Below are positions 3,674 to 41,831 of a stretch of 64,000 bases of DNA, piece after piece. Source of the DNA: Cellulophaga sp. HaHa_2_95. GTDB lineage: Bacteria; Bacteroidota; Bacteroidia; Flavobacteriales; Flavobacteriaceae. Position 1 is the first letter of the stretch; each line of letters opens with the position of its first letter. Location of the stretch: assembly GCF_019278565.1 (NCBI RefSeq), contig NZ_CP058988.1, forward strand, positions 1,860,001-1,924,000, written 5' to 3'. The notes below the pieces were generated by a model. The model worked only from the letters and a program-made list of their open reading frames with translations, had not been told where the DNA came from and did not search any database. Position numbers and translations under genes: made by a program.

Positions 3674-3873
3674 GCTCGAAATGGAATTCAAAATAAATTT
3701 TACCATAAATAAAACAATATGTCGTCTCAATAAAAATTCTTTGTTGTGAATGGGGATACCTTTGTAGTGAATAGGGGGCGGGATGATGTTTAATTTTTTA
3801 TGTAGGAAAAATTATTCTATTGTAGGAGTAAAGATTTAAGAAGCTATTTATTCGTTTTTTTAGATATAAATAA

Positions 3874-6648: not shown

Positions 6649-7683
6649 TTACAAAGAATTAAGGCTTGATTTAGTTTTTGATGCTTCTAAAACCAAATAG
6701 AATTGTACTCCAAAAAGAATTGCAGCAACGACCATGTGAAAGGTCTGACTACCAAAAGGGAAATCAACATAATACATCGTAATACCAGAAATTATTTCTA
6801 GTAATAATAAAAGTAATACCCATCTTATTTTTTCGAACCCTAATTCGAATTTATAAATCAAATAAGCTATATAAAGGTTTAAAACTCCCACAAAAATGGA
6901 AAAAGACCTGTGTATATAAAATTGAAGGGTAGGATTCATTAGCCATTGACTCTTGGCATCTTCTCCAAAAATATCTATTTGCAGGTCTATAAATTGCCGT
7001 ACTTGAGTCCCAATAATAATTTGAATAAGGGTAACTATTAATGATGCCCACAGCAATTTATACAAATTTCGACTGGCTTTATAGATTTTATCTGTTTCAG
7101 AAGTTTTATAAATAATATAAATTAACATAGCAACAATCACTAAAGCCATGACCATATGAACGGTAATTTTGACGGGTTCTAATAAGGAATACACTACTGT
7201 TGCGCCTAGCCATGCTTGAAACCCCATTCCAAAAACTACCAACCAGGAGAGAATGGTTATGCGTTTGTTTTTTCTCCAATACCCAAAAGATAAAGCAGCA
7301 AGAATAAGTGTAGCAAATCCTGCGAGTGCTCCAAAAAGCCTATTTATATATTCAATCCATGTATGCCATACATTAAAAATAGCATAGTCATGCTTGGTGT
7401 ATTCTTCCCAATTCGAGGCATTATATTTTGCTGAGGTTGTAAAGTCTGTTTTAGCAACTTTTAAAGCTTCGCTGTGAATAATAACTTGGCCTTTTTCAAA
7501 AGTTTTGTTTTTATCCCAATTTAAAACAGATTCATCAGTAGGAGGTATGTAGTATCCAAAACATTTAGGCCAATCAGGACACCCCATTCCACTTCCTGTC
7601 ATCCGCACGACAGCTCCTGCTACGATGACCAAATACACCAATACGAGGGTAATTTGGGCTATTTTTCTAAAGTACTTTTGCAT
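6649..7683 (-). CDS. ctaA: Heme A synthase (COX15/CtaA family)
   Basis: The enzyme oxidises the C8 methyl of heme O to the formyl group of heme A for cytochrome aa3-type oxidases, in the cytoplasmic membrane. The 344 residues have eight predicted membrane segments arranged as two similar four-helix halves. Diagnostic motifs are RMTGSGMGCPDWPKCFG (residues 27-43, with the C35/C41 pair), WHTWIEYINR with H107 and E111, TVHM with H176, and in the second half FYIHRS and TFHMV carrying the heme-ligand histidines. The start after a clear stop-rich gap gives a first helix directly after a short basic leader. No other heme or oxidase gene is nearby in the window. Confidence 0.95.
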   Translation of the reverse strand: MQKYFRKIAQITLVLVYLVIVAGAVVRMTGSGMGCPDWPKCFGYYIPPTDESVLNWDKNKTFEKGQVIIHSEALKVAKTDFTTSAKYNASNWEEYTKHDYAIFNVWHTWIEYINRLFGALAGFATLILAALSFGYWRKNKRITILSWLVVFGMGFQAWLGATVVYSLLEPVKITVHMVMALVIVAMLIYIIYKTSETDKIYKASRNLYKLLWASLIVTLIQIIIGTQVRQFIDLQIDIFGEDAKSQWLMNPTLQFYIHRSFSIFVGVLNLYIAYLIYKFELGFEKIRWVLLLLLLEIISGITMYYVDFPFGSQTFHMVVAAILFGVQFYLVLEASKTKSSLNSL

Positions 7684-9779: not shown

Positions 9780-11922
9780 TTTTAAAAGAATCTTGGTGTT
9801 ATTACTTTTTTGTATCGTGTTAAGAATTCATAGCGAAGAAAGACTTCAAAAGACCCATCATTAAAACGGGTAGCTCCTAGATCTGTTGTTTCTTTATCGT
9901 AGGCTAATCCTAGCATTAATTGTTCTGAGATTTGGAATCCTGCCAATAAACTCACTGCGGCATCCCATCGGTACGCAGCTCCTGCAGAAAATTTATCATT
10001 AATAAGGAAGTTAGCCGAAACATCTATTTGTAAAGGCGCTCCTTTTACAGCTTTTACAAGCCCTGCAGGTTTGAATTTTAGGTTGGGATTTAAATCGAAC
10101 ACATAACCTGTTATAAAGTAAATATTTAACCGTTCTTCGGCTAAGAAAGAGGAACTATTGGTTCCTGCACTATCAAAATGTTCTGTCTGTAAAAAGTTAG
10201 GAACAGATAGTCCGGAGTAAAACTTATCGGTATGGTAGTAAACTCCTGCTCCAAAATTGGGAGAGAATTTATTATCCACGTTAGGCAAGTTACTTTCGGC
10301 GCCATAATTTCTAAGTTTAGAGAAATCGATGTTCAAGAAATGTCCGCCTGCTTTTAATCCAAACGAAAGTTTACCTTCTTCAGAAGTAGGGATGGTATAG
10401 GAAAATGCGGCATCAAAATACGTATCTTGATTGGTACCATTTCCTATTTCATCATTTACAATAGAAAGTCCTAAACCCACTCTTCTAGACACCGGGGTAT
10501 GCAGATTTAGGGTTTGTGTGGTTGGCGCCCCATCTAATCCTACCCATTGTGAGCGGTGTAAGGCAGCAATACTCAGCACCCCTCGGGAACCTGCATAGGC
10601 AGGATTCACCGAAATGGTATTGTACATGTACTGCGTGTATTGCGCATCTTGTTGTGCAGAGAGAGTGGTGGTCCCTGCAAAGACAAAGAGTGCTATGATC
10701 AAATATTTTTTCATGTTTTATTCTTAATGGTTAATGCTTATCGATTAATGTATAAATATCCGGCTTTGTTTAGGTGATTCCCTTCATTTACGTATTTGAT
10801 TATATAGAAGTAAACACCTACAGGTAGCTCAGAATCTGTGCTAATGGTTACTCTACCATTAGAAGCGCCTCTAAATACGTTAGATTGATTATCATACCCA
10901 GCCATTTCATAGACTACCACTCCCCAACGGTTATAAATCTGTACTGTGTTGTTCGGGAAAGACTCAATGTTTTCAATCCTAAAGAAATCATTTACACCAT
11001 CATTATCAGGGGTTAGAATTTCATTAGAAACGGCTATTCCAGAGCTTACGACTTCTTCATCACAACCAGCTGTTAGGGTAGGAACACCACCAATAGCATC
11101 ACAAGGATCTAAAGGATCAGTACCGTCTGTTATTTCTTGACCATCTGGAATCGTATCCCCATCGGTATCTGCATTATTAGGGTCAGAACCAATGGCATCT
11201 TCTTGTGCAGTCGTCAATCCGTCTGCATCACAATCAGATTCAGGTAATGCTTTACCACCATTATGATCACAATCATCCAAAGGATTTGTACCATCCAATA
11301 CTTCCTGACCATCAAGAATACCATCCCCATCGGAATCAGGATTATTAGGATCTGTTCCTAAAGTAATTTCTTCACCGTCTGATAATCCATCGTTGTCAGA
11401 ATCAGGATTATTAGGATCTGTTCCTGCCGCTACCTCTTGATCTGTTGTTAATCCGTCGTTATCACAATCGCTATCTCCTAAAGGACTTCCGTTTACAGAA
11501 CTACAATCATCTAATGGGTTTGTAGCGTCTGTATTTACTTCTTGACCATCAGAAATACCATCTCCATCGGTATCAGGATTGTTAGGGTCTGTTCCTAAAG
11601 CTGTCTCTTCATTGTCATTAATTCCATCACTATCCGTATCAACCGAAACTGTTACCGTTCCTGTTCCTGCATTTCCTGAAGGATCTGTAGCTGTAATAGC
11701 AATGACATCTTCATCTAGTAAGGTAGGGAAGCTACCAGAATCTGGTACAGCTGTTTCGGTGTCTAAACTCCAGTTACCACTAGCGTCTGTAATTATCGTA
11801 TAGGTAACATCAGGAAGGTTATCACCATCTGTATCCAATTCTATAAGCAGGGTTTCATTAGCATTTCCTTGACCTGTTAGGATAGGGGTAATGTCTATAG
11901 TACTGAAACTATCTACTGTTGG
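9780..11922. repeat. 2143-bp duplicated export cassette, copy 1 (PorP plus adhesin C-terminus)
   Basis: Bases 9780-11922 align without any indel to 25509-27651, at a constant offset of 15729. The unit runs from 2 bp outside the PorP stop codon, through PorP and the 23-bp spacer, to the codon where the adhesin repeats begin. Sequence on both sides is unrelated between the copies. Scattered single-base differences show that it is not a very recent event. Confidence 0.95.
9782..10714 (-). CDS. PorP/SprF-family type IX secretion outer-membrane protein (copy 1)
   Basis: The 310 residues begin with a signal peptide (KKYLIIALFVFAGTTTLSAQ) followed by the family start QDAQYTQYMYNTISVNPAYAG. The rest alternates short amphipathic strands, as expected for an outer-membrane beta barrel. 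SprF of Flavobacterium johnsoniae is needed for secretion of the type B substrate SprB, so this protein is probably the dedicated partner of the adhesin encoded 23 bp upstream. It differs from the copy at 25511-26443 by one residue (A here, V there, in the SxGAAYRWD segment), although about two dozen bases differ. That pattern points to strong selection on the protein. Confidence 0.95.
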   Translation of the reverse strand: MKKYLIIALFVFAGTTTLSAQQDAQYTQYMYNTISVNPAYAGSRGVLSIAALHRSQWVGLDGAPTTQTLNLHTPVSRRVGLGLSIVNDEIGNGTNQDTYFDAAFSYTIPTSEEGKLSFGLKAGGHFLNIDFSKLRNYGAESNLPNVDNKFSPNFGAGVYYHTDKFYSGLSVPNFLQTEHFDSAGTNSSSFLAEERLNIYFITGYVFDLNPNLKFKPAGLVKAVKGAPLQIDVSANFLINDKFSAGAAYRWDAAVSLLAGFQISEQLMLGLAYDKETTDLGATRFNDGSFEVFLRYEFLTRYKKVITPRFF

Positions 11923-14900
11923 ATCTGAAAGATCAAGTGTAGCTGTATCCGTCATGCTATTAGGACCAACGTTTCCTGCAACATCTGTTATGTTAGCAGT
12001 AAGGTCAATGGTACCTGCATCACCTGGATTAGGGATAATTACATCAATAAATCCAGTAGCAATATCTGCAGCAGAAAGCACTACATCTTGTGTGTTTCCA
12101 TTTCCATCAGAGATGGTAACGGTATCTCCTGCAACAGCATCTGCAGGAAGTGTGATACGCGCATCAATATCACCCACTAATTCATCTTCAGAAATCAATC
12201 CGTCGTTATTGGTATCTTCCGTAATAATTACAGTTGGTGCTGTAGGGTCTGTTGTATCAAATGTTGCAATATCTGAAATACTATCTGGACCAACATTACC
12301 GGCAACATCTGTAATAGTTGCCGTAACTGTAATTGTTCCATTATCACCAGGATTAGGGATCACGACAGTAATAGTACCATTAGTAATATCTGTTGCGGTA
12401 AGCACCACATCTTGCGAGTTTCCATTTCCATCGGTAATGGTTACCGTGTCTCCCGCGACCGTATCAGCAGGTAGTGTTATTACAGCATTAATATCGCCTA
12501 CAAGTTCATCTTCAGAAATTAATCCGTCGTTATTGGTATCTTCTGTTATGACGACGCTTGGAGCTGTCGGATCTGTAATATCCAGTACTGCAGTGTCGCT
12601 TACACTATTAGGACCCACGTTTCCGGCAACATCGGTAAGGTTTGCGGTTACTACTAGAGTCCCTGTGTCTCCAGGATTATTGATAATGACATCAATAAAT
12701 CCATTAGTAATATCCGTTGCCGTAAGCACTACATCTTGTGAGTTACCATTACCATCAGTGATGGTGACTGTATCTCCTTCAAGAGCATCGGCAGGCAATG
12801 TCACACGTGCATCAATATCACCAATAAGTTCATCTTGGTTTATTAATTCATCGTTATTGGTGTCTTCTGTGATGGCTACTGTTGGTGCTGTAGGATCTGT
12901 GGTGTCAAGTGTTGCAGTATCTGTAACACTATTTGGCCCCACATTACCAGCAACATCTGTTATGTTGGCCGTCACTATAATTGTTCCATTGTCTCCAGGG
13001 TTAGGAATTACAACCGCAATAGTACCATTGGCAATATCCGTGGTTGTAAGTACTACATCTTGTGAGTCTCCATTTCCATCGGTAATGGTAACGCTATCAC
13101 CTGCAACCGCATCTGCTGGCAGTGTTACTACAGCATCAATATCGCCTACAAGTTCATCTTCATTTATTAGTCCATCGTTATTGACATCTTCTGTGATAAC
13201 TACTGTTGGTGCAGTAGGATCTGTAGTATCAAGTGTTGCGGTATCTGTAGCACTATTAGGGCCCACGTTTCCGGCAACATCGGTAAGGTTTGCGGTTACT
13301 ACTAGGGTCCCTGTGTCTCCAGGATTATTGATAATGACATCAATAAATCCATTGGTAATATCCGTTGCCGTAAGCACCACATCTTGTGAGTTTCCATTTC
13401 CATCAGTGATGGTTACGGTATCCCCTTCAAGAGCATCGGCAGGCAAAGTCACACGTGCATCTATGTCGCCTACAAGTTCATCTTCATTGATTAATTCATC
13501 ATCGTTGCTGTCTTCCGAAATAACTATCGTTGGAGCAGTTGGATCAGTAAGATCAATGGTAGCAGAATCTGACGTACTATCAGGACCTACATTCCCCGCC
13601 ACATCCGTAAGGTTAGCCGTTACGACTATAGTTCCTCCATCACCAGGATTAATAATGCTGACTAAAATAAAACCATTTGAAGCTTCTGTTGCTGTCAAAA
13701 TGATATCTTGGCTATTACCATTTCCATCAGTAATGGTAACGGTATCACCGCCAACGGCATTACTAGGTAATGATATTACAGCATTAATATCTGCCGATAA
13801 TTCATCTTCGTTTATAAATCCGTCATCATTAACGTCTTCTGAAATAATAACTGTTGGAGCTCCAGGATCTGTAGTATCAAGTACTGCAGTATCCGTTAAA
13901 CTATCAGGACCTACATTCCCTGCAACATCCGTAAGATTTGCGGTAACTACAATAGTGCCTTTATCTCCAGGGTTAGCGATAATGACATCTATAAATCCAT
14001 TGGCAATATCAGTAGTAGTTAAAACAACATCTTGAGAATTTCCATTCCCATCGGTTACAGTTACGGTATCTCCTGCAACGGCATCCGCTGGAAGTGTTAC
14101 ACGAGCATCTATGTCTCCTACGAGTTCATCTTCATTGATTAATTCATCATCGTTTGTATCTTCTGTAATTTCTATTGTCGGAGCACTTGGGTCCGTAAGG
14201 TCAAGTACTGCTGTATCTGTAGCGCTGTCTACACTTTCATTGCCGGCGATATCCGTAATTTTAGCGGTAACAACAATAGTTCCGTTATCTCCAGGGTTAA
14301 CAATTACAATAGCAATCGTGGCATTGGTAATATCTGTTGCTGTAAGTACTACCTCTTGAGAATTTCCATTTCCATCGGTAATAGTTACTTTATCACCAGC
14401 AACGGCATCCGCAGGAAGAGTTACCACAGCGTCAATCGGACCAGTTAACTCATCTTCACTAATTAAACCATCATTATTGGTGTCTTCTACAATTTCTATT
14501 GTAGGCGCTGTTGGATCCGTAATATCGAGCACAGCAGTATCTGTAGCGCTATCTGGACCCACATTTCCTGCAACATCCGTAAGAGTTGCCGTAACTACAA
14601 TGGTACCTGTATCTCCAGGGTTCGCAATAATCACATCTATGAACCCTGTTGTAATATCTGTAGCCGTAAGTACTACCTCTTGAGAATTTCCATTCCCATC
14701 GGTAACAATTACTTTATCACCAGCAAGGGCATCAGCAGGCAATGTTACCCTAGCGTCAATATGGCCTACAAGTTCATCTTCACTAATTAATTCATCATCG
14801 TTGCTGTCTTCCGTAATGCTTATTGTAGGAGCGGTTGGATCAGTAAGGTCAAGTACAGCGGTATCTGTTGCACTGTTAGGACCTACATTCCCTGCAACAT

Positions 14901-17900
14901 CCGTTATATTGGCGGTTAGCACAATAGTATCGCCATCTCCAGGATTGGCAATCACAATAGCAATGGTGCCATTCGTAATATCTGTCGCGGTAAGTACCAC
15001 ATTTTGTAAGTTTCCATTCCCATCCGTAATGGTTACGGTATCACCTATAGCAGCATCAGCAGGAAGTGTAACTATGGCATTAATATCACCGATTAACTCA
15101 TCTTCACTAATTAGACCATCGTTGTTGGTGTCTTCTACAATTTCTACGGTAGGAGCTGTTGGAGCTGTAGTATCAATGGTTAATTCTAAGTTCGTAATAT
15201 CAGTAGCACTGTTACCTGCTTCATCTGTACTTGTAACAGTCACTTCATTTGTACCATTTACATTCGGCGCAAAAGTTCCTGAGGTAGGAGCTTCTGTTTC
15301 CGTATCAATGGTCCAATCCCCTGAAGCATCCGCTGTGGTAGTGAATGTTGCTCCACCAACAGTTACCGTAATTGTAGAATTAGCTTCTGCCGTACCTTCA
15401 AGTACAGGAGTAGTGTCATTTGTAATTTGACTTTCTACTGTTGGAATCTCTGGATCTGTGGTATCTATCGTCAACTCTAAAGTAGTAGCATCTACAGAAC
15501 TATTTCCTGCAGCATCCGTACTTGTTACCACTACTTCATTAGCTCCATTTACATTTGGCGTAAATGTTCCACTATCTGGTGTAGCTGTTTCTGTATCGAT
15601 ACTCCAGTTGCCCGAGCTATCGGTAATTATGGTATATGTTGCTCCTGCAACTACTATTTCTAAAGTAGAATCTGCTTCTGCAGTTCCAGTAATTATTGGT
15701 GTTGTATCATTTGTAATTTGATCTTGTACTGTAGGATCAACAGGTGGCGTTACATCTACCGTGAGCACTGCAGCAGCAGAAGTCAACGGAGAACATACAA
15801 AAGAAGTTTCTGTAATTATTACTCTATACTCATACCCGTTTTCTGTAATTGTTATACTTGTTAGAGTTAATGTTCCAGTGGTACTTCCTGTATAAATATC
15901 AGTTGCATTGGCATCATCTATATCTATAAATCCACTACCAGATTGGTCATCAACTTGCCATTGGTATATTAATTCTGTTCCATTCGCAGTAACAGAGAAT
16001 ATCTCTGGAGAACTGCCATTTGTTAACACATCTTGTGGTTGCTCTGCGGCAGTTGCAATTGTTGGAATAATACCAGGTTGTTGAAAATCAAAGGCTGTGT
16101 TGCTAGCACTATCTACATTATTAGGAGTCGTGTATCCGTCGGTCACAGTTGTTCCTGTAACTATTCCGTTTGCATCTACTAGGGTAGGGGCATCACCTAA
16201 ATATCCATCAGCATTGTCATCTGTGTATCCTGCTTCGATAACATCATTACAGCCATCTCCATCAGCATCTATTTCAAGGAAATCGGCAATACCATCAGGG
16301 GTAGTTTCAGAATCAAATACGGTATAATTTACTGTACCACTATTCTGTTGTCCACTGGCCTGTACCGTATTTGCGATACCATCTGTACCCACGGCACCGT
16401 TTAGAACGCCGGTTGTAAAAGCTTTTCCGCTTCCAGATTCCACCACATCATAAATACCATCATTATCAGCATCTAAATCAAAGTGATTAGGAACGCCATC
16501 GCCGTCGGTATCAAAACTATCGACAATAGAATCGCCATTAGCATCAGGACCTAAGTCTGTATCTTGGTAATTTAAAATTCCGTCAGCATCATCATCCGCA
16601 CTTGGATCAGTACCCGATGTTTCCAAGGTGTCTAAAATTCCATCATTGTCATCATCAAGATCAATTGAATCGGCTATGCCGTCTAAGTCATTATCATCAA
16701 TCCCAACTTCACGATAATCTACTTCCGGAGTGGTCGTTTTAGCAATATTTGGTAAATCTATAGCTCCATTATCTTGATCATCATTCGTATCAAAAAGGGT
16801 TCCTGGAGTATCAACATCATCATAACCATTTAGTAAACCATCACCATCAGAATCTAGATTATTTGTTGCTGCAACAAAACCAGCTTCTCTTCTATCTGTT
16901 AGTGTATCATTATCAGAATCTAAATCTAAATAATCAGGAATACCATCTAGATCTGTATCAATAACCATTAAACCTTCATTACCAGTTCCTTCATAAGCAT
17001 CTCCCAATCCGTCTCCATCCGTATCATCTATTCCTCTAGGCGTATACGATGTGGTAAGTTGTGCTTCTACATTATCAGGAATACCATCATTATCAGAATC
17101 AATATCTAAATGATCTTCAATACCATCATTATCACTATCAATACCTTGGTATATTTTGTATACCGGTGCCGTTCCAGGTCCTGAGGCAACTCCTGTTGGA
17201 GTACCACCAGAATTAGTAGCAGAAGTAGTATTGGTAGGTGTAAACAATCCATTAATATCACATGTTTGGAATAAAATAGATCCTAAATAATCATTAGTAC
17301 CAAAACCTGTTTGCAACTCACCCGTAAAAGTAAGATCAAGATTTGTTGTTTCATAGTAATTAAAGTATGCCGCTATTTTAGGACCAAAATCTACTCCGGC
17401 CCAAGTTTGCGCAGGACCTTCAAAAGTGGCAGTACCTGTAGCTAAATTTTCAGATACAGTAAGTAATGAATTACTATCCACGGCATATAAACCTGGACGG
17501 GTTAATGTTACACTTTCTCTAGTGTTAGCACCGTCTATATCATAAATTACGCCTCCAAATCTAATAAGGTTGACTTGAAAATCTGTTCCAGAAGCTACCA
17601 AGCGAATGTTAAAGGAAATACTTCCTGTTTCTCCTGCTACACCTCCTACGTCAAAAGTAGGTTGCCAAGCCTCATTGCTACTACCAACAGGGAAAGCATC
17701 TATTGATGTTAAGGTTGCATTATCAATATCCGTAATTGTAACAATGGCATCTAAAATCCCTAAAGACGAGGTCACTACCGTTGAGAATCTATATTCAGCA
17801 CCGATTGTACCAACACCAGCTCCGGTAGCAGCTATATAAGCGCCACCAATAAATGAACCAGGAGGTATACCACAATCATCACCTTTGACATCGGTAGGTT

Positions 17901-20900
17901 GAAACCCTAAAGATTCTACATAATCTAAGATTCCATCATTATCATTATCAATATCAATACTGTTATCAACGCCATCACCATCGGTATCAATAGGATCTAA
18001 GTGAACAATATTATCCCTAAAATCTACCTCACTCGTAAAAGGATCTTGGGTGTTCAAGAACGTAGTAACATCTTGGTTATTATTTGTTGCGCCGTTTGGA
18101 TCTTCTAGTCCGTTAGGAGCTGCAATACTTAAATCAAAGGCATCATCTAAACCATCGTTATCAGCATCTATTCCCGAAGGTGTAACATCTGCAGCCAAAT
18201 CATCATTATAATCATACACCTCTGTGGTGTCATCTAATCCGTCATTGTCAGAATCCGTATCTCTGAAATCAGGACTATCTGTACCATCCGTATTTGTTGG
18301 AGCATTTATAGATTCACCTGAACCTGCAGGAGCAACCTCATAATTATCGGCTAGACCGTTCCCATCTGAATCTGCAGATGGAAAGAGATGTCCTGATGTG
18401 GATTGCCATTCTATATTATCTATAATCCCATCATTATCACTATCTAAATCTAAATAATCTGGTAAAGCATCTGCATCTGTATTTTCTGGGATACTACTAA
18501 AACTACCTCCATTATCTACATCAAAAGCATCATCGACCCCATCATTATCAGAATCATCGCCCGATAGTTGTACTAAACTTGCGTCTGATTGCGCTTCTAC
18601 TAAATCTTGTATTCCATCATTATCAGAATCGATATCTAAATAATCAGGACCAGTGGTACCATCAGAATTTATAGGAGTTGTTGATACTCCCGCACCATCA
18701 GTTCCACCATCTTCAGCCGTATCTGGAATTCCATTGGTGCCGACGCCACTTTCAGAACTGTCTATATAACCGTTGCCATTTGTGTCTAATGCACCATTTC
18801 CTGTTTCTACAAGATCTGGAATACCATCATTATCACTATCAAGGTCTAAACTATTTGGAACACCGTCACCATCAAAATCACCAGTACCTTCAACCGTATC
18901 TGGTATACCATCATTATCATCATCTTCATCACAGGCATCAGGAAGTGCATCACCATCTGCATTTATAGCATCATCAAACCCTTCACAGGCGTCCAAAGAA
19001 TTTTGCACACCATCGCCATCACAATCACTTGTTGGCAAAGGGGTTCCGCCAATAGACTCACAATCATTTAAAGGATTTGTATTATCTGACGCTTCTTGAC
19101 CGTCATCAATACCATCACCATCCGTATCTGAATTGTAGGGATCCGTACCATTAGTAACTTCAGTACCATTTATAATACCGTCGCCATCGCAATCTGCTGC
19201 TGCCCACATAGCGTTTGTAGCATCATAGCCTGTATATCCTGGAGCTTGCACCGGATCACATGGGTTTAATGCATCTGTATCTATATTGTCAGGCACACCA
19301 TCACCATCGGTATCATTGCTATAAGGATCTGTATTATTGGTAACCTCTGTTCCATTGGTAACTCCGTCACTATCACAATCTGCTGCTGCCCAAACAGCAT
19401 TGGTGGCATCATAGCCTGCGTATCCTGGGGCTTGTATTGGATCACAAGGATCTAAGGCATCTGTATCTGTATTGTCTGGCACACCATCACCATCGGTATC
19501 TGTATTGTATGGGTCTGTATTATTAGTGGCCTCTGTACCATTAGTAATGCCATCACCATCACAATCTGCCGCTGCCCAAATAGCGTTGGTAGCATCATAA
19601 CCTGTGTAGCCTGGAGCTTGTATTGGATCACAAGGATCTAATGCATTTGTATCTGTATCATCTGGTACACCATCGCCATCTGTATCGTTGCTATAGGGAT
19701 CTGTATTATTGGTAACTTCTGTTTCATTGGTAACTCCGTCGCTATCACAATCTGCTGCTGCCCAAATAGCATTGGTAACATCATACCCTGTATAGCCTGG
19801 AGCTTGCACTGGATCACAAGGATCCAATGGATTCGTATCTATATCATCTTGAACACCATCACCATCGGTATCCGTATTGTATGGGTCTGTATTATTAGTA
19901 GCCTCTGTACCATTAGTAACATTATCACCATCACAATCTGCTGCTGCCCATATAGTATTTGTAGCATCGTAACCTGCATATCCTGCGGCTTGTACTGGAT
20001 CACAAGGGTCCAAAGCATTGGTATCTGTATTATCTGGTACACCGTCACCATCGGTATCGGTACTGTAAGGATCCGTATTGTTAGTAACTTCTGTATCATT
20101 GGTCACGCCATCCCCATCACAATCTGCCGCTGCCCAAATAGCATTGGTCGCATCATAACCGGCATAACCTGGAGCTTGTACTGGATCACAAGGATCCAAT
20201 GGATTCGTATCTATATCATCTTGAACACCATCACCATCGGTATCCGTATTGTATGGGTCTGTATTATTCGTTACCTCGGTACCATTAAGAACATTATCCC
20301 CATCACAATCTGCTGCTATCCAAGTAGCATTAGTAGCATCATAGCCTGTGTAACCTGGGGCTTGTACTGGATCACAAGGATCTAATGCGTTTGTATCTGT
20401 ATTATCTGGTACACCATCACCATCTGTATCGGTGCTATATGGGTCCGTTCCATTGGTCACTTCTGTTCCATTGGTCACTCCGTCGCCATCACAATCTGCT
20501 GCTGCCCAAATAGTATTGGTAGCATCATAACCTGCATATCCTGGAGCTTGTATTGGATCACAAGGGTTTAAGGCATCCGTATCCACATCATCTTGAACCC
20601 CATCACCATCGGTATCTGTATTAAATGGGTCAGTACCATTGGTAGCTTCTGTACCATTATCAAGATTATCACCATCACAATCTTCGGCTGCCCAAACGGC
20701 ATAATTTTCATCTGTTGAAGTACGTACCGTAGGCACAGTAACTTCACAAGGATCGGAAGGGTTTGTATTATTGGTTACTTCAAAACCATTTGTTTCGCCA
20801 TCACCATCACAATCCAAAGCATCCCAACTTGCTTCTGCATTTGCGGCAACTTGATTGGTACTGTATACACAAGGGTCTAAAGGATCTGTATCTGTAGTAT

Positions 20901-23900
20901 CCGGATCGCCATCACCGTCAGTATCAAGATCACAGATACCCACTAAACCATCGCCATCCAAATCTAAATCTTCGGTGGTGACCGCGCTGACAGCTCCAGT
21001 AGTGTACGTAGCAGATGCTACCAATCCGTTCGCTAATATGGTTCCAGAGCCATCCGTTACTACAGCTGAATCTGCATCGTTATATTCTGCTCCATCACCA
21101 TTATCTGCGGTACTATCCGTATAGGCTTCATTAGCGTCTGAACAACCATCGGCATCACTATCTAAATTTAGATAATCAGGAGTCCCTATTGTTGTTTCAA
21201 TAGGGGTGGTTCCTGTGCCTGCACTGCTAGGAATACCTGCAGTACTGATGCTACCATCTGCAATGCCATTTGCATCTGCATCTGTTCCTCCTGATTCTAC
21301 TACATCGTAAATTCCGTCATTATCACTATCAAGGTCAAGTATATTTGGAACGCCATCATTATCCACATCGCATGCTAAAACAGATCTAAAAGCAAAACCT
21401 TCGTTTACATGGTTAGCGCTACTATTTATATTCCCATCTGCATAAAAACCGATGTCCATTGGAAAGGTTATTCCGGTACTTGTATCTATTAATAAAGACC
21501 ATTGTGAATCTGTGATAGTTCTTGAAAGTCCGGCAGCATCAGGAGCAACTTGAAAGGGAGTTCCTGAAGTTATCACCGCTCCATTCCCTAAATCGGTTTC
21601 CCCCAGAGGATCGGATAGCACAGCTGTACCGCCTCCTGGCCAAGTAATTGTTATCGTTTTATCCGCGTTTTGTATGGCACCAACATCACTGTTGTTTTCA
21701 TAGGTAGAGACACGAATTGCTTGTTGTATCGCATTTGTAGGTTGTTCAACGCTAAAAGTCATTTCAACCGTGGGGTCTGTACCTTGATTCCATCGTACTT
21801 GCAAACCGTTATCCGCTGGGCCTGTTTTATCTAAAATATTATATTCTGTAGATGTAATTGTAAACTGTTGATTAACGCCATCGCCATTGTCATATTCCCC
21901 TGTAAGGAACAATGAATCATCTCCGGTTAAGATTACACCATGTGCAGGGGTACATTCTAAAGCATCTGCTATCCCATCATTATCGTCATCATCATCACAG
22001 GCATCGCCTATTGTATCGCCATCTATATCTTGAAATAAAGGGTGATTAGAATCACATTCGGAGCATTCATCTGCTTGTTGTAAATTATCTAAGGAAGTTC
22101 CTATGCCTTGAGATGTTCCTCCAGAAACACCAGCAGCATCTATTGCAGCTGTTAGTCTAAGACTGCCATCTAAATCACTATAATTATAACTTGCATCGCC
22201 TTCTAAAGCATCAGGACAACCGTCATTATCACTATCGGAATCTAAATGATCATAAATGCCATCATTATCAGTATCTGTATACAACGAACATAAAGTATTC
22301 ACTCTCCAACCAATATTATCTGCATTAGCGGTGGCAGCTTGTGTTATAACAATTCTGTTAATTCCTTTATCTATATTAAATCTGAAGTTTGCTTCTTGCG
22401 CTGTACCTCCAATTATAGCCGCTACTGCTTCTCCAGAAACTGGATCGTACGACGCTCCTGTACCAATGGTACCGCTAGTGGCATAAATGTCTGCCGTGAA
22501 TTCTACTTGAACACTATTATTATAAAATTTGATATTTTGACTTTCATCATAACTACCAGAAGCATTTCTTGCTAAACTTCTTACGTTAAATTCTGTAGAT
22601 AATATAAGTTCAGAAAATACAATTTCTGTTGTAGTGCCGGTTACAGCAGAATTTGAGTTACGTGTTTGCATATCTACTTGCACGCTACCATCTGTGTAAT
22701 TTGGATTTCCAGTAGGAAATGTTCCTGAACCAATGGTAGTAGTGGCAACCGCTGTGATATCGTTATCAAAATCTTTTATATAGGCTACCAAATCACCATC
22801 ATTACTATTTAAGGTAATTAAATTATAGGATGAATCTGTAAAATGAATATCATTTGTGGGAACTAAACCACAATCTTTATTAAATTCATCTACATCTAAA
22901 ATACCATCATTATCATCATCACTATCACAACCATCTGGAATGCCATCTAAATCGGTATCAATACCATCATCAAATCCTTCACAAATATCAGAAGTATCGG
23001 GTACGCCATCATTGTCATCATCTAAGTTCTCTATGGTAATTACTTCTATTACATCATCTGGAGATGAATTAGAATCTGTTTGATCTTGTGTGTTAGAAAT
23101 GGTATTTGTTATGCTCGTAGTGGCAACCGCTTCATTAATATCATCTGCCGTAGCTACGATAATTAATGATTGCTTTTCTCCTTTTACCATATCTCCTACA
23201 TTCCAGTTAGGAGCAGACCAAGTACCCTTGCTAGGCGTAGCACTAGTAAGTGTTAGTCCTGCAGGTAAATTATCTGTAATGACTAAGCCAGTGGTATTAT
23301 CTAACCCCAGACTCTCTACAGTTATCGTAAAGGTTACTGTTTCTCCTTCTGAGATTGTTGTTTTATCTGAAGTCTTGTTAATATAAATATCTGGATTGCA
23401 ATAAAAAAACTGAATAACGTTAGAGTTGTAATCACAACCACTTTTGGATACATTTACATAATGTTCACCAATTTCAGTAGGAGTGTAGCTATCGCTTGTG
23501 GCTCCAGGTATAGCAACACCATCATTGAACCATTGGTAAGTGTCAAAGGTTTCTGTGAGTGTAATAGTGCTTCCTAAACACCCAGAACCTGATATAGAAT
23601 AATCTACTACAGGTACGGTATCAAAACCAGAAAAGTATCCCCCTGTTCCTAGTGCGCCACTAAAACCAACAACTCCAACAGCAATGGCTCCTGAAGATTG
23701 GACATAGATATTACCTGTTAAATTAGGAATATAAAAACTTTTCCAAGGTAAGCCTGTGGCAGGTATAGGAGCGGGGAGGGTCACAGGAACACCATTAGAG
23801 GTCACTACTATATTGGCATCAGGAGTACTATTGGAAGCTAGAATAGTTAATGCCCCTGATATTGTTTTTCCTGCTAAATCTTCAATTGTACTTATGTTAT

Positions 23901-25023
23901 TTACATTGTCGGGAAGTAGACAATTCACAGGAGCAATAAAATTCATTCCTATGGTTGCTCCTGAATTACTACCTGCCAAACATTGATAGGCATACACATT
24001 TTTTGATGTAGTAACGGTCATATTATTACCAGCGGTACTGCCTGAATAATTTGATCCAGGAACTAAAAAATATTCTCCGTCATTTATTGTAGCAATAGGG
24101 GTGGTTGCACCGTTAATAAAAATATCAGTACCACTGGCGGTTCCAATTATAATCGGAAATTCTAAGGCATCTGTACCACCACCTCTAATAAAAACATATT
24201 CACGACCAATAATATCTATAGGCACGGGTTGATCTGTTCCTCCATCTTGTATATTAGATCCTGGGAGAACACCAAGTAAAATATGACCAACACTAATTGC
24301 GATATTTTTGTCTGAACTAACATCTGCACCTAACCATCCATATCTATTGGCGTCACCGTTATTTCCTTCAACTTCCAATACATAAGATTCTCCTTTATTT
24401 AAAGTAATCGTAATCGTGTCATCGGTTAAGCCTGTACCATTATTTCCTAATCTAAAAACACAATCAGGATCATAGTCTGAAATGGTAACCGTTGTATTAT
24501 CTTCCGTAGCCATAATCCCCAAGGCCGCATTATAAATGCTACGATCATGTAAAAAAGGGATACCACCCCATTTAAAATGTGTACCTAGAGCTGCACGACC
24601 CTTTGAAGTTAGAGAGACCCCTTGGGCATTACTATTTCCTCTATAATTGGCATAAAATTTTTGTCCGCTAGGAGCTTCCAAACGTAATCCAGCGGTACTA
24701 CTAACAAGGCCAACTTCAGCATTAGGTAATAATGTTATTCCATTTTCTCTTGAGGGTAGAATATACGTATAAGGAATAGTGTTCGATATAGAAACCGTTG
24801 CTAGCGGAGTTATCGAGGTTCCTGCGTAAATATTTACATCAAAAGGTATGGTTTCCGGAGTAGATAGGTATACATATTGATCTATAATATAATTGGCATT
24901 TGTCTCAGCTAGCGGTGGCATGTAGTGCAAGTCACTCAGCTGTGCATAGGAACTAGCCACTGTGAGAAGGAGAAAAGCAAAACTTAAATAATAAGATCTT
25001 ATAGTAGATAGATTATTTTTCAT
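10738..25023 (-). CDS. Giant T9SS type B adhesin, 4761 aa
   Basis: The signal peptide covers residues 1-27 (ending SSYAQ). An IgGFc-binding-like N-terminal domain (about 30-470) is paralogous to that of the 1-3673 gene. A DUF11 module follows near 545-660. Then comes a long stretch of thrombospondin-3/calcium motifs (DxDxDGxxD) containing eight exact-length 62-aa repeats (about 1480-1960). Two Ig-like modules (about 3070-3280, D-P-x-x-P-T-V-x-x-Q-I-T-N-D-T-T-P) lead into ten 108-aa repeats (about 3284-4366). After a further TSP3 stretch the chain ends with the gliding-motility-associated type B sorting domain (NEILTPDNDGVNDFFRIENI near 4670, then VQIYNRWGVVVYE and GVYFYIIKY). It is exported through the Sec and type IX routes and displayed on the surface. 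It is the first gene of an operon with PorP and the PorE-like gene. Its exact ligand is unknown; the calcium motifs suggest calcium-dependent stiffening. Confidence 0.95.
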   Translation of the reverse strand: MKNNLSTIRSYYLSFAFLLLTVASSYAQLSDLHYMPPLAETNANYIIDQYVYLSTPETIPFDVNIYAGTSITPLATVSISNTIPYTYILPSRENGITLLPNAEVGLVSSTAGLRLEAPSGQKFYANYRGNSNAQGVSLTSKGRAALGTHFKWGGIPFLHDRSIYNAALGIMATEDNTTVTISDYDPDCVFRLGNNGTGLTDDTITITLNKGESYVLEVEGNNGDANRYGWLGADVSSDKNIAISVGHILLGVLPGSNIQDGGTDQPVPIDIIGREYVFIRGGGTDALEFPIIIGTASGTDIFINGATTPIATINDGEYFLVPGSNYSGSTAGNNMTVTTSKNVYAYQCLAGSNSGATIGMNFIAPVNCLLPDNVNNISTIEDLAGKTISGALTILASNSTPDANIVVTSNGVPVTLPAPIPATGLPWKSFYIPNLTGNIYVQSSGAIAVGVVGFSGALGTGGYFSGFDTVPVVDYSISGSGCLGSTITLTETFDTYQWFNDGVAIPGATSDSYTPTEIGEHYVNVSKSGCDYNSNVIQFFYCNPDIYINKTSDKTTISEGETVTFTITVESLGLDNTTGLVITDNLPAGLTLTSATPSKGTWSAPNWNVGDMVKGEKQSLIIVATADDINEAVATTSITNTISNTQDQTDSNSSPDDVIEVITIENLDDDNDGVPDTSDICEGFDDGIDTDLDGIPDGCDSDDDNDGILDVDEFNKDCGLVPTNDIHFTDSSYNLITLNSNDGDLVAYIKDFDNDITAVATTTIGSGTFPTGNPNYTDGSVQVDMQTRNSNSAVTGTTTEIVFSELILSTEFNVRSLARNASGSYDESQNIKFYNNSVQVEFTADIYATSGTIGTGASYDPVSGEAVAAIIGGTAQEANFRFNIDKGINRIVITQAATANADNIGWRVNTLCSLYTDTDNDGIYDHLDSDSDNDGCPDALEGDASYNYSDLDGSLRLTAAIDAAGVSGGTSQGIGTSLDNLQQADECSECDSNHPLFQDIDGDTIGDACDDDDDNDGIADALECTPAHGVILTGDDSLFLTGEYDNGDGVNQQFTITSTEYNILDKTGPADNGLQVRWNQGTDPTVEMTFSVEQPTNAIQQAIRVSTYENNSDVGAIQNADKTITITWPGGGTAVLSDPLGETDLGNGAVITSGTPFQVAPDAAGLSRTITDSQWSLLIDTSTGITFPMDIGFYADGNINSSANHVNEGFAFRSVLACDVDNDGVPNILDLDSDNDGIYDVVESGGTDADANGIADGSISTAGIPSSAGTGTTPIETTIGTPDYLNLDSDADGCSDANEAYTDSTADNGDGAEYNDADSAVVTDGSGTILANGLVASATYTTGAVSAVTTEDLDLDGDGLVGICDLDTDGDGDPDTTDTDPLDPCVYSTNQVAANAEASWDALDCDGDGETNGFEVTNNTNPSDPCEVTVPTVRTSTDENYAVWAAEDCDGDNLDNGTEATNGTDPFNTDTDGDGVQDDVDTDALNPCDPIQAPGYAGYDATNTIWAAADCDGDGVTNGTEVTNGTDPYSTDTDGDGVPDNTDTNALDPCDPVQAPGYTGYDATNATWIAADCDGDNVLNGTEVTNNTDPYNTDTDGDGVQDDIDTNPLDPCDPVQAPGYAGYDATNAIWAAADCDGDGVTNDTEVTNNTDPYSTDTDGDGVPDNTDTNALDPCDPVQAAGYAGYDATNTIWAAADCDGDNVTNGTEATNNTDPYNTDTDGDGVQDDIDTNPLDPCDPVQAPGYTGYDVTNAIWAAADCDSDGVTNETEVTNNTDPYSNDTDGDGVPDDTDTNALDPCDPIQAPGYTGYDATNAIWAAADCDGDGITNGTEATNNTDPYNTDTDGDGVPDNTDTDALDPCDPIQAPGYAGYDATNAVWAAADCDSDGVTNGTEVTNNTDPYSNDTDGDGVPDNIDTDALNPCDPVQAPGYTGYDATNAMWAAADCDGDGIINGTEVTNGTDPYNSDTDGDGIDDGQEASDNTNPLNDCESIGGTPLPTSDCDGDGVQNSLDACEGFDDAINADGDALPDACDEDDDNDGIPDTVEGTGDFDGDGVPNSLDLDSDNDGIPDLVETGNGALDTNGNGYIDSSESGVGTNGIPDTAEDGGTDGAGVSTTPINSDGTTGPDYLDIDSDNDGIQDLVEAQSDASLVQLSGDDSDNDGVDDAFDVDNGGSFSSIPENTDADALPDYLDLDSDNDGIIDNIEWQSTSGHLFPSADSDGNGLADNYEVAPAGSGESINAPTNTDGTDSPDFRDTDSDNDGLDDTTEVYDYNDDLAADVTPSGIDADNDGLDDAFDLSIAAPNGLEDPNGATNNNQDVTTFLNTQDPFTSEVDFRDNIVHLDPIDTDGDGVDNSIDIDNDNDGILDYVESLGFQPTDVKGDDCGIPPGSFIGGAYIAATGAGVGTIGAEYRFSTVVTSSLGILDAIVTITDIDNATLTSIDAFPVGSSNEAWQPTFDVGGVAGETGSISFNIRLVASGTDFQVNLIRFGGVIYDIDGANTRESVTLTRPGLYAVDSNSLLTVSENLATGTATFEGPAQTWAGVDFGPKIAAYFNYYETTNLDLTFTGELQTGFGTNDYLGSILFQTCDINGLFTPTNTTSATNSGGTPTGVASGPGTAPVYKIYQGIDSDNDGIEDHLDIDSDNDGIPDNVEAQLTTSYTPRGIDDTDGDGLGDAYEGTGNEGLMVIDTDLDGIPDYLDLDSDNDTLTDRREAGFVAATNNLDSDGDGLLNGYDDVDTPGTLFDTNDDQDNGAIDLPNIAKTTTPEVDYREVGIDDNDLDGIADSIDLDDDNDGILDTLETSGTDPSADDDADGILNYQDTDLGPDANGDSIVDSFDTDGDGVPNHFDLDADNDGIYDVVESGSGKAFTTGVLNGAVGTDGIANTVQASGQQNSGTVNYTVFDSETTPDGIADFLEIDADGDGCNDVIEAGYTDDNADGYLGDAPTLVDANGIVTGTTVTDGYTTPNNVDSASNTAFDFQQPGIIPTIATAAEQPQDVLTNGSSPEIFSVTANGTELIYQWQVDDQSGSGFIDIDDANATDIYTGSTTGTLTLTSITITENGYEYRVIITETSFVCSPLTSAAAVLTVDVTPPVDPTVQDQITNDTTPIITGTAEADSTLEIVVAGATYTIITDSSGNWSIDTETATPDSGTFTPNVNGANEVVVTSTDAAGNSSVDATTLELTIDTTDPEIPTVESQITNDTTPVLEGTAEANSTITVTVGGATFTTTADASGDWTIDTETEAPTSGTFAPNVNGTNEVTVTSTDEAGNSATDITNLELTIDTTAPTAPTVEIVEDTNNDGLISEDELIGDINAIVTLPADAAIGDTVTITDGNGNLQNVVLTATDITNGTIAIVIANPGDGDTIVLTANITDVAGNVGPNSATDTAVLDLTDPTAPTISITEDSNDDELISEDELVGHIDARVTLPADALAGDKVIVTDGNGNSQEVVLTATDITTGFIDVIIANPGDTGTIVVTATLTDVAGNVGPDSATDTAVLDITDPTAPTIEIVEDTNNDGLISEDELTGPIDAVVTLPADAVAGDKVTITDGNGNSQEVVLTATDITNATIAIVIVNPGDNGTIVVTAKITDIAGNESVDSATDTAVLDLTDPSAPTIEITEDTNDDELINEDELVGDIDARVTLPADAVAGDTVTVTDGNGNSQDVVLTTTDIANGFIDVIIANPGDKGTIVVTANLTDVAGNVGPDSLTDTAVLDTTDPGAPTVIISEDVNDDGFINEDELSADINAVISLPSNAVGGDTVTITDGNGNSQDIILTATEASNGFILVSIINPGDGGTIVVTANLTDVAGNVGPDSTSDSATIDLTDPTAPTIVISEDSNDDELINEDELVGDIDARVTLPADALEGDTVTITDGNGNSQDVVLTATDITNGFIDVIINNPGDTGTLVVTANLTDVAGNVGPNSATDTATLDTTDPTAPTVVITEDVNNDGLINEDELVGDIDAVVTLPADAVAGDSVTITDGNGDSQDVVLTTTDIANGTIAVVIPNPGDNGTIIVTANITDVAGNVGPNSVTDTATLDTTDPTAPTVAITEDTNNDELINQDELIGDIDARVTLPADALEGDTVTITDGNGNSQDVVLTATDITNGFIDVIINNPGDTGTLVVTANLTDVAGNVGPNSVSDTAVLDITDPTAPSVVITEDTNNDGLISEDELVGDINAVITLPADTVAGDTVTITDGNGNSQDVVLTATDITNGTITVVIPNPGDNGTITVTATITDVAGNVGPDSISDIATFDTTDPTAPTVIITEDTNNDGLISEDELVGDIDARITLPADAVAGDTVTISDGNGNTQDVVLSAADIATGFIDVIIPNPGDAGTIDLTANITDVAGNVGPNSMTDTATLDLSDPTVDSFSTIDITPILTGQGNANETLLIELDTDGDNLPDVTYTIITDASGNWSLDTETAVPDSGSFPTLLDEDVIAITATDPSGNAGTGTVTVSVDTDSDGINDNEETALGTDPNNPDTDGDGISDGQEVNTDATNPLDDCSSVNGSPLGDSDCDNDGLTTDQEVAAGTDPNNPDSDNDGLSDGEEITLGTDPNNPDSDGDGILDGQEVLDGTNPLDDCDHNGGKALPESDCDADGLTTAQEDAIGSDPNNADTDGDTIPDGQEITDGTDPLDPCDAIGGVPTLTAGCDEEVVSSGIAVSNEILTPDNDGVNDFFRIENIESFPNNTVQIYNRWGVVVYEMAGYDNQSNVFRGASNGRVTISTDSELPVGVYFYIIKYVNEGNHLNKAGYLYINR
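11923..15170 (-). repeat. Ten 324-bp (108-aa) tandem repeats with EF-hand-like loops
   Basis: The repeat-internal landmark (ttcatcttc) recurs from 12181 to 15097, which is exactly 9 x 324 bp and so gives ten copies without indels. Each unit reads APT-x-x-I-x-ED, then an EF-hand-like loop (D-x-N-x-D-G/E-x-I-x-x-x-E), then an Ig-like body (VTLPADAxxGDTVTITDGNG and TDVAGNVGPDS). Odd and even copies form two classes that alternate through the whole array. Confidence 0.9.
19110..20590 (-). repeat. Eight 186-bp (62-aa) TSP3-type tandem repeats
   Basis: The landmark ggatcacaa recurs from 19255 to 20557, exactly 7 x 186 bp, so eight copies without indels. Each copy has the cysteine pair D-P-C-D-P and A-D-C-D-x-D with a conserved W (AxWAAADCDGDG) and ends in TDPYxTDTDGDGVPD. 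Two diverged copies extend the array on the N-terminal side of the protein (to about 20900). Confidence 0.9.
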
Positions 25024-25510
25024 AGCAGGAATTGTGGTTTGTGGTCATTTTTTAAAAAGACAGTAGTCGATTTTAAGGTTTTATTAACAAGAAAATAAAT
25101 TCAGTTTGAATTCGACTTTCAGTTCAATATAAAATCTATACAATCGTCAAACGGCTGCATTTCAATGTTAAAATACAATTTTATAGGATAAAACTTACTT
25201 ATTTGTATATTAAATCTTATATGCTATAAAATTTTTATGTGTTAATTATTTATAAAGTAAGACTAATTATGAAGGAATTTTTAAAAATTGTTGTGTTATG
25301 TACAATTTTGTGTGGTCAAATGACCGATAAGTGTCGACAAGTGGTAAATTGACCATTAGGATAAGGAGATTTTTTATATAGTAAATATTCGTATAAAATG
25401 CATTTTATATTAAGAAAGGATTTAGTTGAGGTCGGTAAACGACTTCAACTAAATCCTGTTTATTTTCTGATGTTGAGCATCAGATATTTACTTAGTATAA
25501 AGAAACTATT
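25024..25510. other. 487-bp intergenic region between adhesin 1 and PorP copy 2
   Basis: No gene is seen. It should hold the promoter of the minus-strand adhesin operon, but no clear TAnnTTTG box stands out upstream of 25023. The distal part holds the hairpins that follow PorP copy 2, including a small stem CTGATG/CATCAG at 25467-25483. Confidence 0.5.
25417..25457 (-). terminator. Terminator-like hairpin after PorP copy 2
   Basis: An 18-bp stem (AGGATTTAGTTGAGGTCG at 25417-25434 pairing with 25440-25457, one mismatch) with a 5-base loop. It lies 54 bp beyond the PorP stop on the minus strand and is followed by a modest T-rich stretch. It probably ends the second adhesin operon, which has no PorE-like gene. 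Confidence 0.6.
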
Positions 25511-27651
25511 TTAAAAGAATCTTGGTGTTATTACTTTTTTGTATCGTGTTAAGAATTCATAGCGAAGAAAGACTTCAAAAGACCCATCATTAAAACGGGT
25601 AGCTCCTAGGTCTGTTGTTTCTTTATCGTAGGCTAATCCTAGCATTAATTGTTCAGAGATTTGGAATCCTGCCAATAAACTCACTGCGGCATCCCATCGG
25701 TATGCAGCTCCTACAGAAAATTTATCATTAATTAGGAAGTTAGCCGAAACATCTATTTGTAAAGGCGCTCCTTTTACAGCTTTTACAAGCCCTGCAGGTT
25801 TGAATTTTAGGTTGGGATTTAAATCGAACACATAACCTGTTATAAAGTAAATATTTAACCGTTCTTCGGCTAAGAAAGAGGAACTATTGGTTCCTGCACT
25901 ATCAAAATGTTCTGTCTGTAAAAAGTTAGGAACAGATAGTCCGGAGTAAAACTTATCCGTATGGTAATAAACGCCTGCTCCAAAATTGGGAGAGAATTTA
26001 TTATCTACATTAGGCAAGTTACTCTCTGCGCCATAATTTCTAAGTTTAGAGAAATCGATGTTTAAGAAATGTCCTCCAGCTTTCAATCCAAACGAAAGTT
26101 TACCTTCTTCAGAAGTAGGGATGGTATAGGAAAATGCGGCATCAAAATACGTATCTTGATTGGTACCATTTCCTATTTCATCATTTACAATAGAAAGTCC
26201 TAAACCCACCCTTCTAGATACAGGGGTATGCAGATTTAAGGTTTGAGTGGTTGGCGCCCCATCTAATCCTACCCATTGTGAGCGGTGTAAGGCAGCAATA
26301 CTCAGCACCCCTCGGGAACCTGCATAGGCAGGATTCACCGAGATGGTATTGTACATGTACTGCGTGTATTGCGCATCTTGTTGTGCAGAGAGAGTTGTGG
26401 TCCCAGCAAAGACAAAGAGCGCTATGATCAAATATTTTTTCATGTTTTATTCTTAATGGTTAATGCTTATCGATTAATGTATAAATATCCGGCTTTATTT
26501 AGGTGATTCCCTTCATTTACGTATTTGATTATATAGAAGTAAACACCTACAGGTAATTCAGAATCTGTGCTAATGGTTACTCTACCATTAGAAGCGCCTC
26601 TAAATACGTTAGATTGATTATCATATCCAGCCATTTCATAGACTACCACTCCCCAACGGTTATAAATCTGTACTGTGTTGTTCGGGAAAGATTCAATGTT
26701 TTCTATTCTAAAGAAATCATTTACACCATCATTATCAGGGCTTAGAATTTCATTAGAAACGGCTATTCCAGAGCTTACGACTTCTTCATCACAACCAGCT
26801 GTTAGGGTAGGAACACCACCAATAGCATCACAAGGATCTAAAGGATCAGTACCGTCTGTTATTTCTTGACCATCTGGGATGGTATCCCCATCGGTATCTG
26901 CATTATTAGGGTCAGAACCAATAGCATCTTCTTGTGCTGTCGTCAATCCGTCTGCATCACAATCGCTATCCGGTAATGCTTTACCACCATTATGATCACA
27001 ATCATCCAAAGGATTTGTACCATCCAATACTTCCTGACCATCAAGAATACCATCCCCATCGGAATCAGGATTATTAGGATCTGTTCCTAAAGCAATTTCT
27101 TCACCGTCTGATAATCCATCGTTGTCAGAATCAGGATTGTTAGGATCTGTTCCTGCCGCTACCTCTTGATCTGTTGTTAATCCGTCGTTATCACAATCGC
27201 TATCTCCTAAAGGACTTCCGTTTACAGAACTACAATCATCTAATGGGTTTGTAGCGTCTGTATTTACTTCTTGACCATCAGAAATACCATCTCCATCGGT
27301 ATCAGGATTGTTAGGGTCTGTTCCTAAAGCTGTCTCTTCATTTTCATTAATTCCATCACTATCCGTATCAACCGAAACTGTTACCGTTCCTGTTCCTGCA
27401 TTTCCTGAAGGATCTGTAGCTGTAATAGCAATGACATCTTCATCTAGTAAGGTAGGGAAGCTACCAGAATCTGGTACAGCTGTTTCGGAGTCTAAACTCC
27501 AGTTACCACTAGCGTCTGTAATTACCGTATAGGTAACATCAGGAAGGTTATCACCATCTGTATCCAATTCTATAAGCAAGGTTTTATTAGCATTTCCTTG
27601 ACCTGTTAGGATAGGGGTAATGTCTATAGTGCTGAAACTATCTACTGTTGG
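25509..27651. repeat. 2143-bp duplicated export cassette, copy 2
   Basis: Second copy of the 9780-11922 segment, colinear without indels. The right-hand junction falls at the start of the Ig-repeat array of adhesin 2, where the sequence stops matching between adjacent bases (27651/27652). The left-hand junction is 2 bp past the PorP stop. Confidence 0.95.
25511..26443 (-). CDS. PorP/SprF-family type IX secretion outer-membrane protein (copy 2)
   Basis: This is the near-identical twin of the 9782-10714 gene: the same 310-residue length, signal peptide and QDAQYTQYMYN start, with one amino-acid difference. It lies 23 bp downstream of the second adhesin and is followed by a hairpin rather than by an OmpA-type gene. 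The expected role is outer-membrane partner for secretion or attachment of the 2693-aa adhesin, whose sorting domain is also nearly identical to that of adhesin 1. The two PorP proteins should therefore be interchangeable between the two adhesins; that is inference. Confidence 0.95.
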   Translation of the reverse strand: MKKYLIIALFVFAGTTTLSAQQDAQYTQYMYNTISVNPAYAGSRGVLSIAALHRSQWVGLDGAPTTQTLNLHTPVSRRVGLGLSIVNDEIGNGTNQDTYFDAAFSYTIPTSEEGKLSFGLKAGGHFLNIDFSKLRNYGAESNLPNVDNKFSPNFGAGVYYHTDKFYSGLSVPNFLQTEHFDSAGTNSSSFLAEERLNIYFITGYVFDLNPNLKFKPAGLVKAVKGAPLQIDVSANFLINDKFSVGAAYRWDAAVSLLAGFQISEQLMLGLAYDKETTDLGATRFNDGSFEVFLRYEFLTRYKKVITPRFF

Positions 27652-34503: not shown

Positions 34504-34548
34504 GGAAGCTATTTTAATTTTTATCATTGAAATTATCGAAATCTTCAA

Positions 34549-36797: not shown

Positions 36798-36798
36798 G

Positions 36799-37359: not shown

Positions 37360-37531
37360 GATAAAATTTTTAGGGCTCAAAAATAACCTTTTAATAACTA
37401 TTAAAATAAATCTTTTTCGAGATGTTTTAGTGCAAATGAGATAATAATAGGGCTCTAAAAGCTGTTATAGCAATGTTTTTTTGATGTAATTTGTAGTAGA
37501 AATGCAATTACAGCTATTTTAAAAGTGTACT

Positions 37532-41813: not shown

Positions 41814-41831
41814 TTTACGCTAAAATTTTCT

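Follow-up and report, generated by a model that had tools for sequence, protein, structure and literature searches.

A PorP gene and adhesin sorting end as the probable constant part of a recombining giant-adhesin family in Cellulophaga

The window analysed here, a 64,000-nucleotide stretch of the Cellulophaga sp. HaHa_2_95 chromosome (NZ_CP058988.1, positions 1,860,001 to 1,924,000), carries two giant adhesin genes whose downstream ends, each together with an adjoining PorP/SprF gene, form a nearly identical block. We think it likely that this block forms the constant end in a family of surface adhesins that recombine, with upstream bodies (passengers) being swapped while the secretion end is kept uniform within a genome. 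The window's own genome is G000, a single contig of 4,538,800 bases, and it was compared with the other genomes of the genus (G001–G017; 18 in total).

The first-pass annotation of this DNA had described a 2143-bp block that occurs twice without indels, and alignment bears this out: copy 1 (9780–11922) and copy 2 (25509–27651) lie at an offset of 15729, contain no indel and differ at 50 positions. Like the other genes of the site and its two borders, both are on the minus strand. Copy 1 consists of PorP/SprF gene 1 (9782–10714, 310 residues; PF11751, E 4e-93), a 23-bp spacer and the final 394 codons, with the stop codon, of adhesin 1 (A1; 10738–25023, 4761 residues); copy 2 holds PorP/SprF gene 2 (25511–26443, 310 residues; E 6e-93) and the end of adhesin 2 (A2; 26467–34548, 2693 residues). 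The mismatches are divided between PorP (25) and the adhesin part (25), with none in the spacer. The 25 PorP differences, which the annotation had put at about two dozen, change a single residue (A244V), while the adhesin part has 7 residue differences, and the codon just outside it adds one more. Past the block, identity in 100-bp windows collapses to 22–33% on the OmpA side (42% in the border window) and to 28–47% on the passenger side (55% in the border window). The passenger-side drop falls, as had been noticed, at the start of each adhesin's own repeats, which are the 324-bp (108-residue) repeats of A1 (11916–15134) and the 16 repeats of 309/306 bp in A2, where the 309-bp repeats begin at about 27623. 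Only 11 of 91 PorP pairs in G000 align over more than 300 bp; the window pair reaches 97% over 831 bp and the next best 72%, and its likeness is not a matter of chance. An echo of assembly is also unlikely, given a single-contig genome and 50 sites that distinguish the copies.

The block encodes a type B sorting end of the type IX secretion system (T9SS), made of a TSP3 stalk and a CHU_C domain, with its PorP/SprF shuttle. CHU_C (PF13585) matches the C-terminus of both adhesins (E 2.4e-25 and 2.8e-26), TSP3 repeats lie at the adhesin ends, and a PorP/SprF gene adjoins each adhesin downstream across the 23-bp spacer. In front of the type B C-terminal domain (CTD), Pfam and a repeat scan give A1 an IgGFc_binding N-terminus with TSP3 and Ig-like repeats, and A2 an Ig-like N-terminus. 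A search by sequence returned no PDB relatives of PorP at E 0.01. Across G000 as a whole there are 19 matches of CHU_C type and 14 of PorP type, one of the latter weak. At the array end, beside copy 1, stands a single 647-residue gene (7826–9769) with TPR, PD40 beta-propeller, CarboxypepD_reg and OmpA domains. This is the domain order of PorE, a four-domain protein according to the available text of PMC9143113, and the OmpA end has PDB relatives, the best being 6top. None stands beside copy 2, where tblastn detected no significant remnant of it (best E 0.057), in agreement with the annotation.

By the NG86 method the two PorP genes show nonsynonymous divergence (dN) of 0.0014 and synonymous divergence (dS) of 0.12, a ratio of about 0.01, and the adhesin part shows dN of about 0.01 and dS of about 0.06. 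Such a low PorP ratio would be expected if nothing but strong purifying selection on PorP and CTD kept two old copies alike. However, synonymous sites are alike too: between G000 and G009, dS is 0.67–0.99 for three other PorP families used as controls, which group by locus and broadly in species order, and the PorP of this site (hotspot PorP) differs between G000 and G008 by a synonymous difference (pS) of 0.73. We consider this the least probable explanation of all, and selection acting alone is ruled out by the low synonymous divergence within the genome. A recent tandem duplication of one adhesin–PorP pair in this lineage, with passengers diverging afterwards, would fit a PorP dS near the G000–G002 background (control PorPs 0.14–0.21) as well as the unclustered differences between the copies. 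Against it, the two passengers differ in their make-up, relatives of both occur in other species, and both are far older than the likeness of the cassettes. These relatives make it very improbable and rule out duplication of the whole gene; a copying event limited to the cassette would be one variant of the explanation we favour.

In G008, one kind of cassette is found on different passengers. An A1-type, an A2-type and a third tandem adhesin there have ends that, together with PorP and PorE, are 95–98% identical over 4–4.8 kb. The ends of the A1-type and A2-type adhesins differ by pS 0.05–0.13, the three PorPs by 0.01–0.11, and the three PorE copies are 98–99% identical. Compared with G000, the PorPs of G008_A and G008_B are 70.5–71.1% identical in the codon alignment (∼73% by BLASTN), whereas the A1 passenger retains protein identities of 86% in its N-terminal, 83% in its middle and 76% in its repeat part. 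Passengers of the same species clade, as defined by the rpoB tree, differ by pS 0.38–0.63 (A1, G008–G012) and 0.44–0.62 (A2, G008–G006). Since the passengers are far more diverged than the G008 ends and PorPs, the likeness of the cassettes is younger than the passenger types. The annotation had suggested a cassette that is fitted to new passengers and would turn up on others in related genomes. G008 supports the latter, and half of the former stands: passengers seem to come and go on a cassette that remains typical of its lineage. Its idea of one PorE beside two cassettes describes a local state of G000, as PorE lies inside the homogenised unit in G008. Two of the G008 adhesins (L148–L150, joined coordinates 14964–27308 and 31652–46528) also share an extra stretch, 93% alike, at residues 1795–1993 of the first. 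It is far from the cassette and is probably a second exchanged module inside these adhesins.

Passengers and cassettes have separate histories. A1 has relatives in G009, G008, G012 and G004, and A2 in G001, G010, G006 and G008. The cassette tree comprised 17 of 23 hotspot-type PorPs, leaving aside two incomplete G002 copies, the truncated G003, and G013, G015c7 and G015c8. Approximately unbiased tests rejected a clade of A1 cassettes (p 1e-53) and a clade of A2 cassettes (p 3e-19). A tree of 16 selected N-termini, to the exclusion of others, some of them partial, from the fetched stretches, united those of A1 in one clade with a support of 100/100. Within it, G000 and G009 are placed inside the other Cellulophaga clade with G004 as their nearest neighbour, an arrangement suggesting that A1 passed from one clade to the other without the cassette. 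In an alignment of the CTDs of 16 of 19 adhesins (those of at least 480 residues), indels match the species clade and not the passenger type in all 8 A1 and A2 adhesins with a complete CTD; the A1 of G012, which ends before the CTD, was set aside. The A1 passengers of G004, G008 and G012 differ from one another by pS 0.44–0.64 at rpoB values of 0.13–0.28, and from those of G000 and G009 by about the same amount (0.37–0.64) at rpoB values of 0.52–0.54. Outside the segment nearest the cassette, this divergence does not keep step with the distance between species. Within genomes, the G000 pair and the G008 triple are far more alike than copies under like passengers elsewhere, and the G009 copies less fully so. 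The situation that the annotation had named as refuting its idea, in which each orthologous adhesin has its own long-diverged PorP and sorting domain, was not encountered.

Whole adhesin–PorP units might instead move between species intact, with no swapping of passengers on cassettes. The distance between G000 and G009 is indeed much the same for A1, for its CTD part and for its PorP (pS 0.21, 0.20 and 0.17, against 0.44–0.55 for control PorPs), and exchange of whole units does seem to happen. Intact transfer leaves unexplained the A2 of G000 and G001, in which residues 133–582 of the passenger have a pS of 0.107 and the PorPs one of 0.489, near the 0.52–0.66 of three control PorP orthologues, at an rpoB value of 0.295. 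It equally leaves unexplained the A1-type and A2-type adhesins on one kind of cassette in G008, and as a full account we regard it as improbable, though less so than the two alternatives above. The A2 repeats in between differ strongly between G000 and G001 (pS 0.60), which makes the gene a mosaic joined at more than a single breakpoint.

Between the CCA-adding-enzyme-type gene (35376–36797) and the COX15/CtaA gene (6649–7683), the conserved left and right borders by Pfam and synteny, the site itself turns over. It is resolved in 9 of the 18 genomes; the borders lie on different contigs in G002, G003, G006, G011, G015, G016 and G017, and on one contig but ∼165 kb apart in G004 and G012. The 9 resolved genomes have 0, 0, 0, 1, 1, 1, 2, 3 and 3 adhesin–PorP units. 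G000 has the order A2-PorP, A1-PorP-PorE, and G009 the order A1-PorP, B-PorP, C-PorP-PorE; G008 has three units, each with PorP and PorE, and G001, G005 and G010 have one unit with PorE. The site is empty in G007, G013 and G014 (3 of 9), with borders 62–99 bp apart. A cassette nevertheless occurs on another contig in G013 despite the empty site, and G001 has an A2-type adhesin elsewhere in its chromosome with its own PorP and PorE. Just before A1 in G009, 44 bp resemble the 3′ end of PorP and are read as a putative scar of a lost unit. Pfam finds only adhesin, PorP and PorE domains, and no transposase or integrase gene of a mobile element, among the minus-strand genes in 7826–34548, and nothing in the 5 plus-strand open reading frames of at least 100 residues there. 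The window contains no inverted repeats of at least 60 nt; shorter ends were not searched. A third giant IgGFc_binding adhesin lies beside the site, at 2–3730 and continuing leftward out of the window. To the left, a 4325-residue frame has a CHU_C match (G000:C1:1850873-1851100) with no adjacent PorP match; by its position it is probably the end of this third adhesin, which would make the latter an orphan type B substrate.

The site also seems to exchange DNA between species, because hotspot PorP (dS 0.20–0.31), PorE (0.18) and A1 are less diverged between G000 and G009 than the control PorPs are. The bordering genes have dS values of 0.43 (CCA-type gene), 1.08 (COX15) and 0.85 (NA37). The pairwise homoplasy index (PHI) test for recombination, in a self-written implementation, was significant for hotspot PorP across species (0 of 1000). 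Compared with G002, the NA37-type gene (4994–6052) has a dS of 0.85 while COX15 close by has 0.14; one lineage has probably replaced this stretch.

Several observations weigh against a cassette uniformly homogenised beneath exchanged passengers. The 50 differences between the window copies show no clustering (longest clean run 225 bp, p 0.18), so this pair by itself would also fit one copying of the cassette followed by drift and does not tell it from conversion. The PHI test was significant for one of three control PorP families (p 0.011, 0.069 and 0.774). In G008, if A1 had come late to a cassette already in place, the picture would not differ from that left by conversion of an old cassette. 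The A1 segment nearest the cassette tracks species (pS 0.46 for G008–G012, 0.59–0.64 across clades), and the A1 genes of G000 and G009 are close throughout (0.14–0.32 at an rpoB value of 0.30). The three PorPs of G009 are only moderately alike (pS 0.26–0.31), and copies at separate loci are less so: those of G001, 1.1 Mb apart, are 90% identical in DNA (pS 0.38), and those of G015, on different contigs, are 79% identical (pS 0.60), and there the greater likeness within a genome does not hold. PorP and CTD are not always homogenised together, in contrast to the annotation's notion of one module formed by secretion end and partner, which stands as regards their history apart from the passengers. 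G009_C and G009_A have PorPs that are 96.5% alike in protein but CTDs only 86% alike, and G002c31 and G000 copy 1 have values of 93.9% and 80%; overall the PorPs of G009_C and G002c31 are 94–97% like copy 1, beside CTDs 80–87% like it. Evidence for the pattern beyond the genus is weak. Only 5 of 80 loci in other genera had a second PorP within the fetched stretch, at 65–76% DNA identity. A survey of the family with one genome per genus (149 genomes including G000, with a match at the strict threshold in 42) gave four further genomes with PorP pairs of near-equal score (G026, G063, G068 and G162). Only the G026 pair is really alike (89% over 1401 bp; L223 and L224, on two contigs), and it is a possible second case of the same process.

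We propose that the cassette is the part read by the T9SS, that is the stalk and type B CTD, plus the PorP/SprF shuttle that would capture and hold this CTD. At the one site between the two border genes, units would stand singly or in tandem in an array ending in the PorE-like peptidoglycan anchor. Homologous recombination between cassettes, by gene conversion, unequal crossing-over and exchange with the DNA of other species, would keep the copies alike within a genome while passengers are gained, lost or swapped. The T9SS probably exports each adhesin, which its PorP would then take over and PorE would keep immobile on the cell surface. This draws on the available text of two papers (PMC12618676, PMC9143113), where a PorP-type shuttle binds its type B CTD, a stoichiometric supply of substrate and shuttle is presumed necessary, one shuttle took on another CTD that was 68% like its own, and attachment of CTD–shuttle complexes to the cell wall is the role proposed for PorE homologues. 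With CTDs 99% and PorPs 99.7% alike, either PorP of the window should be able to carry either adhesin, and dosage would favour retaining one PorP per adhesin. Both PorPs are without any cysteine and hence lack the C-terminal Cys-X-Cys motif that, in the accessible part of PMC12635249, links gliding-type SprF to GldK; static adhesins would therefore be expected.

The cassette may further serve as a recombination platform, on which the body of an incoming adhesin is spliced by homologous recombination onto the resident export-and-anchor end; we see about an even chance that it does. The two flanking constant blocks would be the PorP end and intergenic segment in front, and the stalk, CTD and PorP behind. 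The 487-bp intergenic segment upstream of A1 (25024–25510, minus strand) recurs with 87–90% identity in G009, where it precedes both A1 and adhesin C, and in G002 before adhesin E, so that a passenger stands between two shared blocks. It contains a strong hairpin (25417–25457, z −7.4), which the scanner classes as terminator-like, but solely on the plus strand; that the units are transcribed separately is therefore a guess.

Elsewhere in the window, a tandem array of a 98-bp unit (48868–49738; 8.9 copies, 95% matches) lies between a GDSL-lipase-type gene and another gene.

The gene arrangement has known relatives. In Flavobacterium johnsoniae (Fjoh_3952-3951-3950) and Porphyromonas gingivalis (PG1035-PorP-PorE), an adhesin with a CHU_C-type CTD is likewise followed directly by PorP and then by a PorE-like gene, but the available text of these reports concerns cognate pairs with limited crosstalk, not homogenisation or passenger exchange (PMC12618676, PMC9143113). 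In Flavobacterium psychrophilum a 10-kb repeat likewise brings together an adhesin, a PorP/SprF and an outer-membrane protein gene, which are duplicated and recombine; as far as the accessible part of that source goes, its copies are in inverted orientation, contain the adhesin gene and lie at the borders of a chromosomal inversion, whereas here the copies are direct and in tandem with unlike adhesin bodies (PMC5808330). Domain rearrangement and allelic exchange among P. gingivalis gingipains and haemagglutinins similarly diversify T9SS surface proteins by recombination of shared modules, although they concern a different protein class and, in the text available, no shuttle gene accompanies the secretion end (PMC5266723). 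The literature search, which covered sources partly available as text, with subscription papers and preprints outside its scope, yielded no account of concerted evolution of PorP and CTD or of passenger exchange; the term concerted evolution occurs once in PMC7323717, outside the passages covered. The protein parts are known; as far as the literature was searched, the organisation proposed for them, in which a constant end recombines at one fixed site and its passengers can be exchanged, is apparently undescribed.

Such a constant end would explain how giant adhesins can change while sorting signal and shuttle continue to fit each other. The site also offers natural experiments on the specificity of type B CTDs and PorPs, with PorPs 93.9–99.7% alike beside CTDs 99, 86 and 80% alike. 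In polymorphic toxin systems (CdiA, Rhs), a constant delivery part is combined with functional parts that can be exchanged; in the present case it is the C-terminal end that stays constant, together with a partner gene, and the exchanged parts are adhesin-like and thousands of residues long rather than toxin tips. If the cassette does act as a recombination platform, Cellulophaga species would draw on a common, circulating stock of giant adhesins at one chromosomal site, the equivalent among surface adhesins of the polymorphic toxins.

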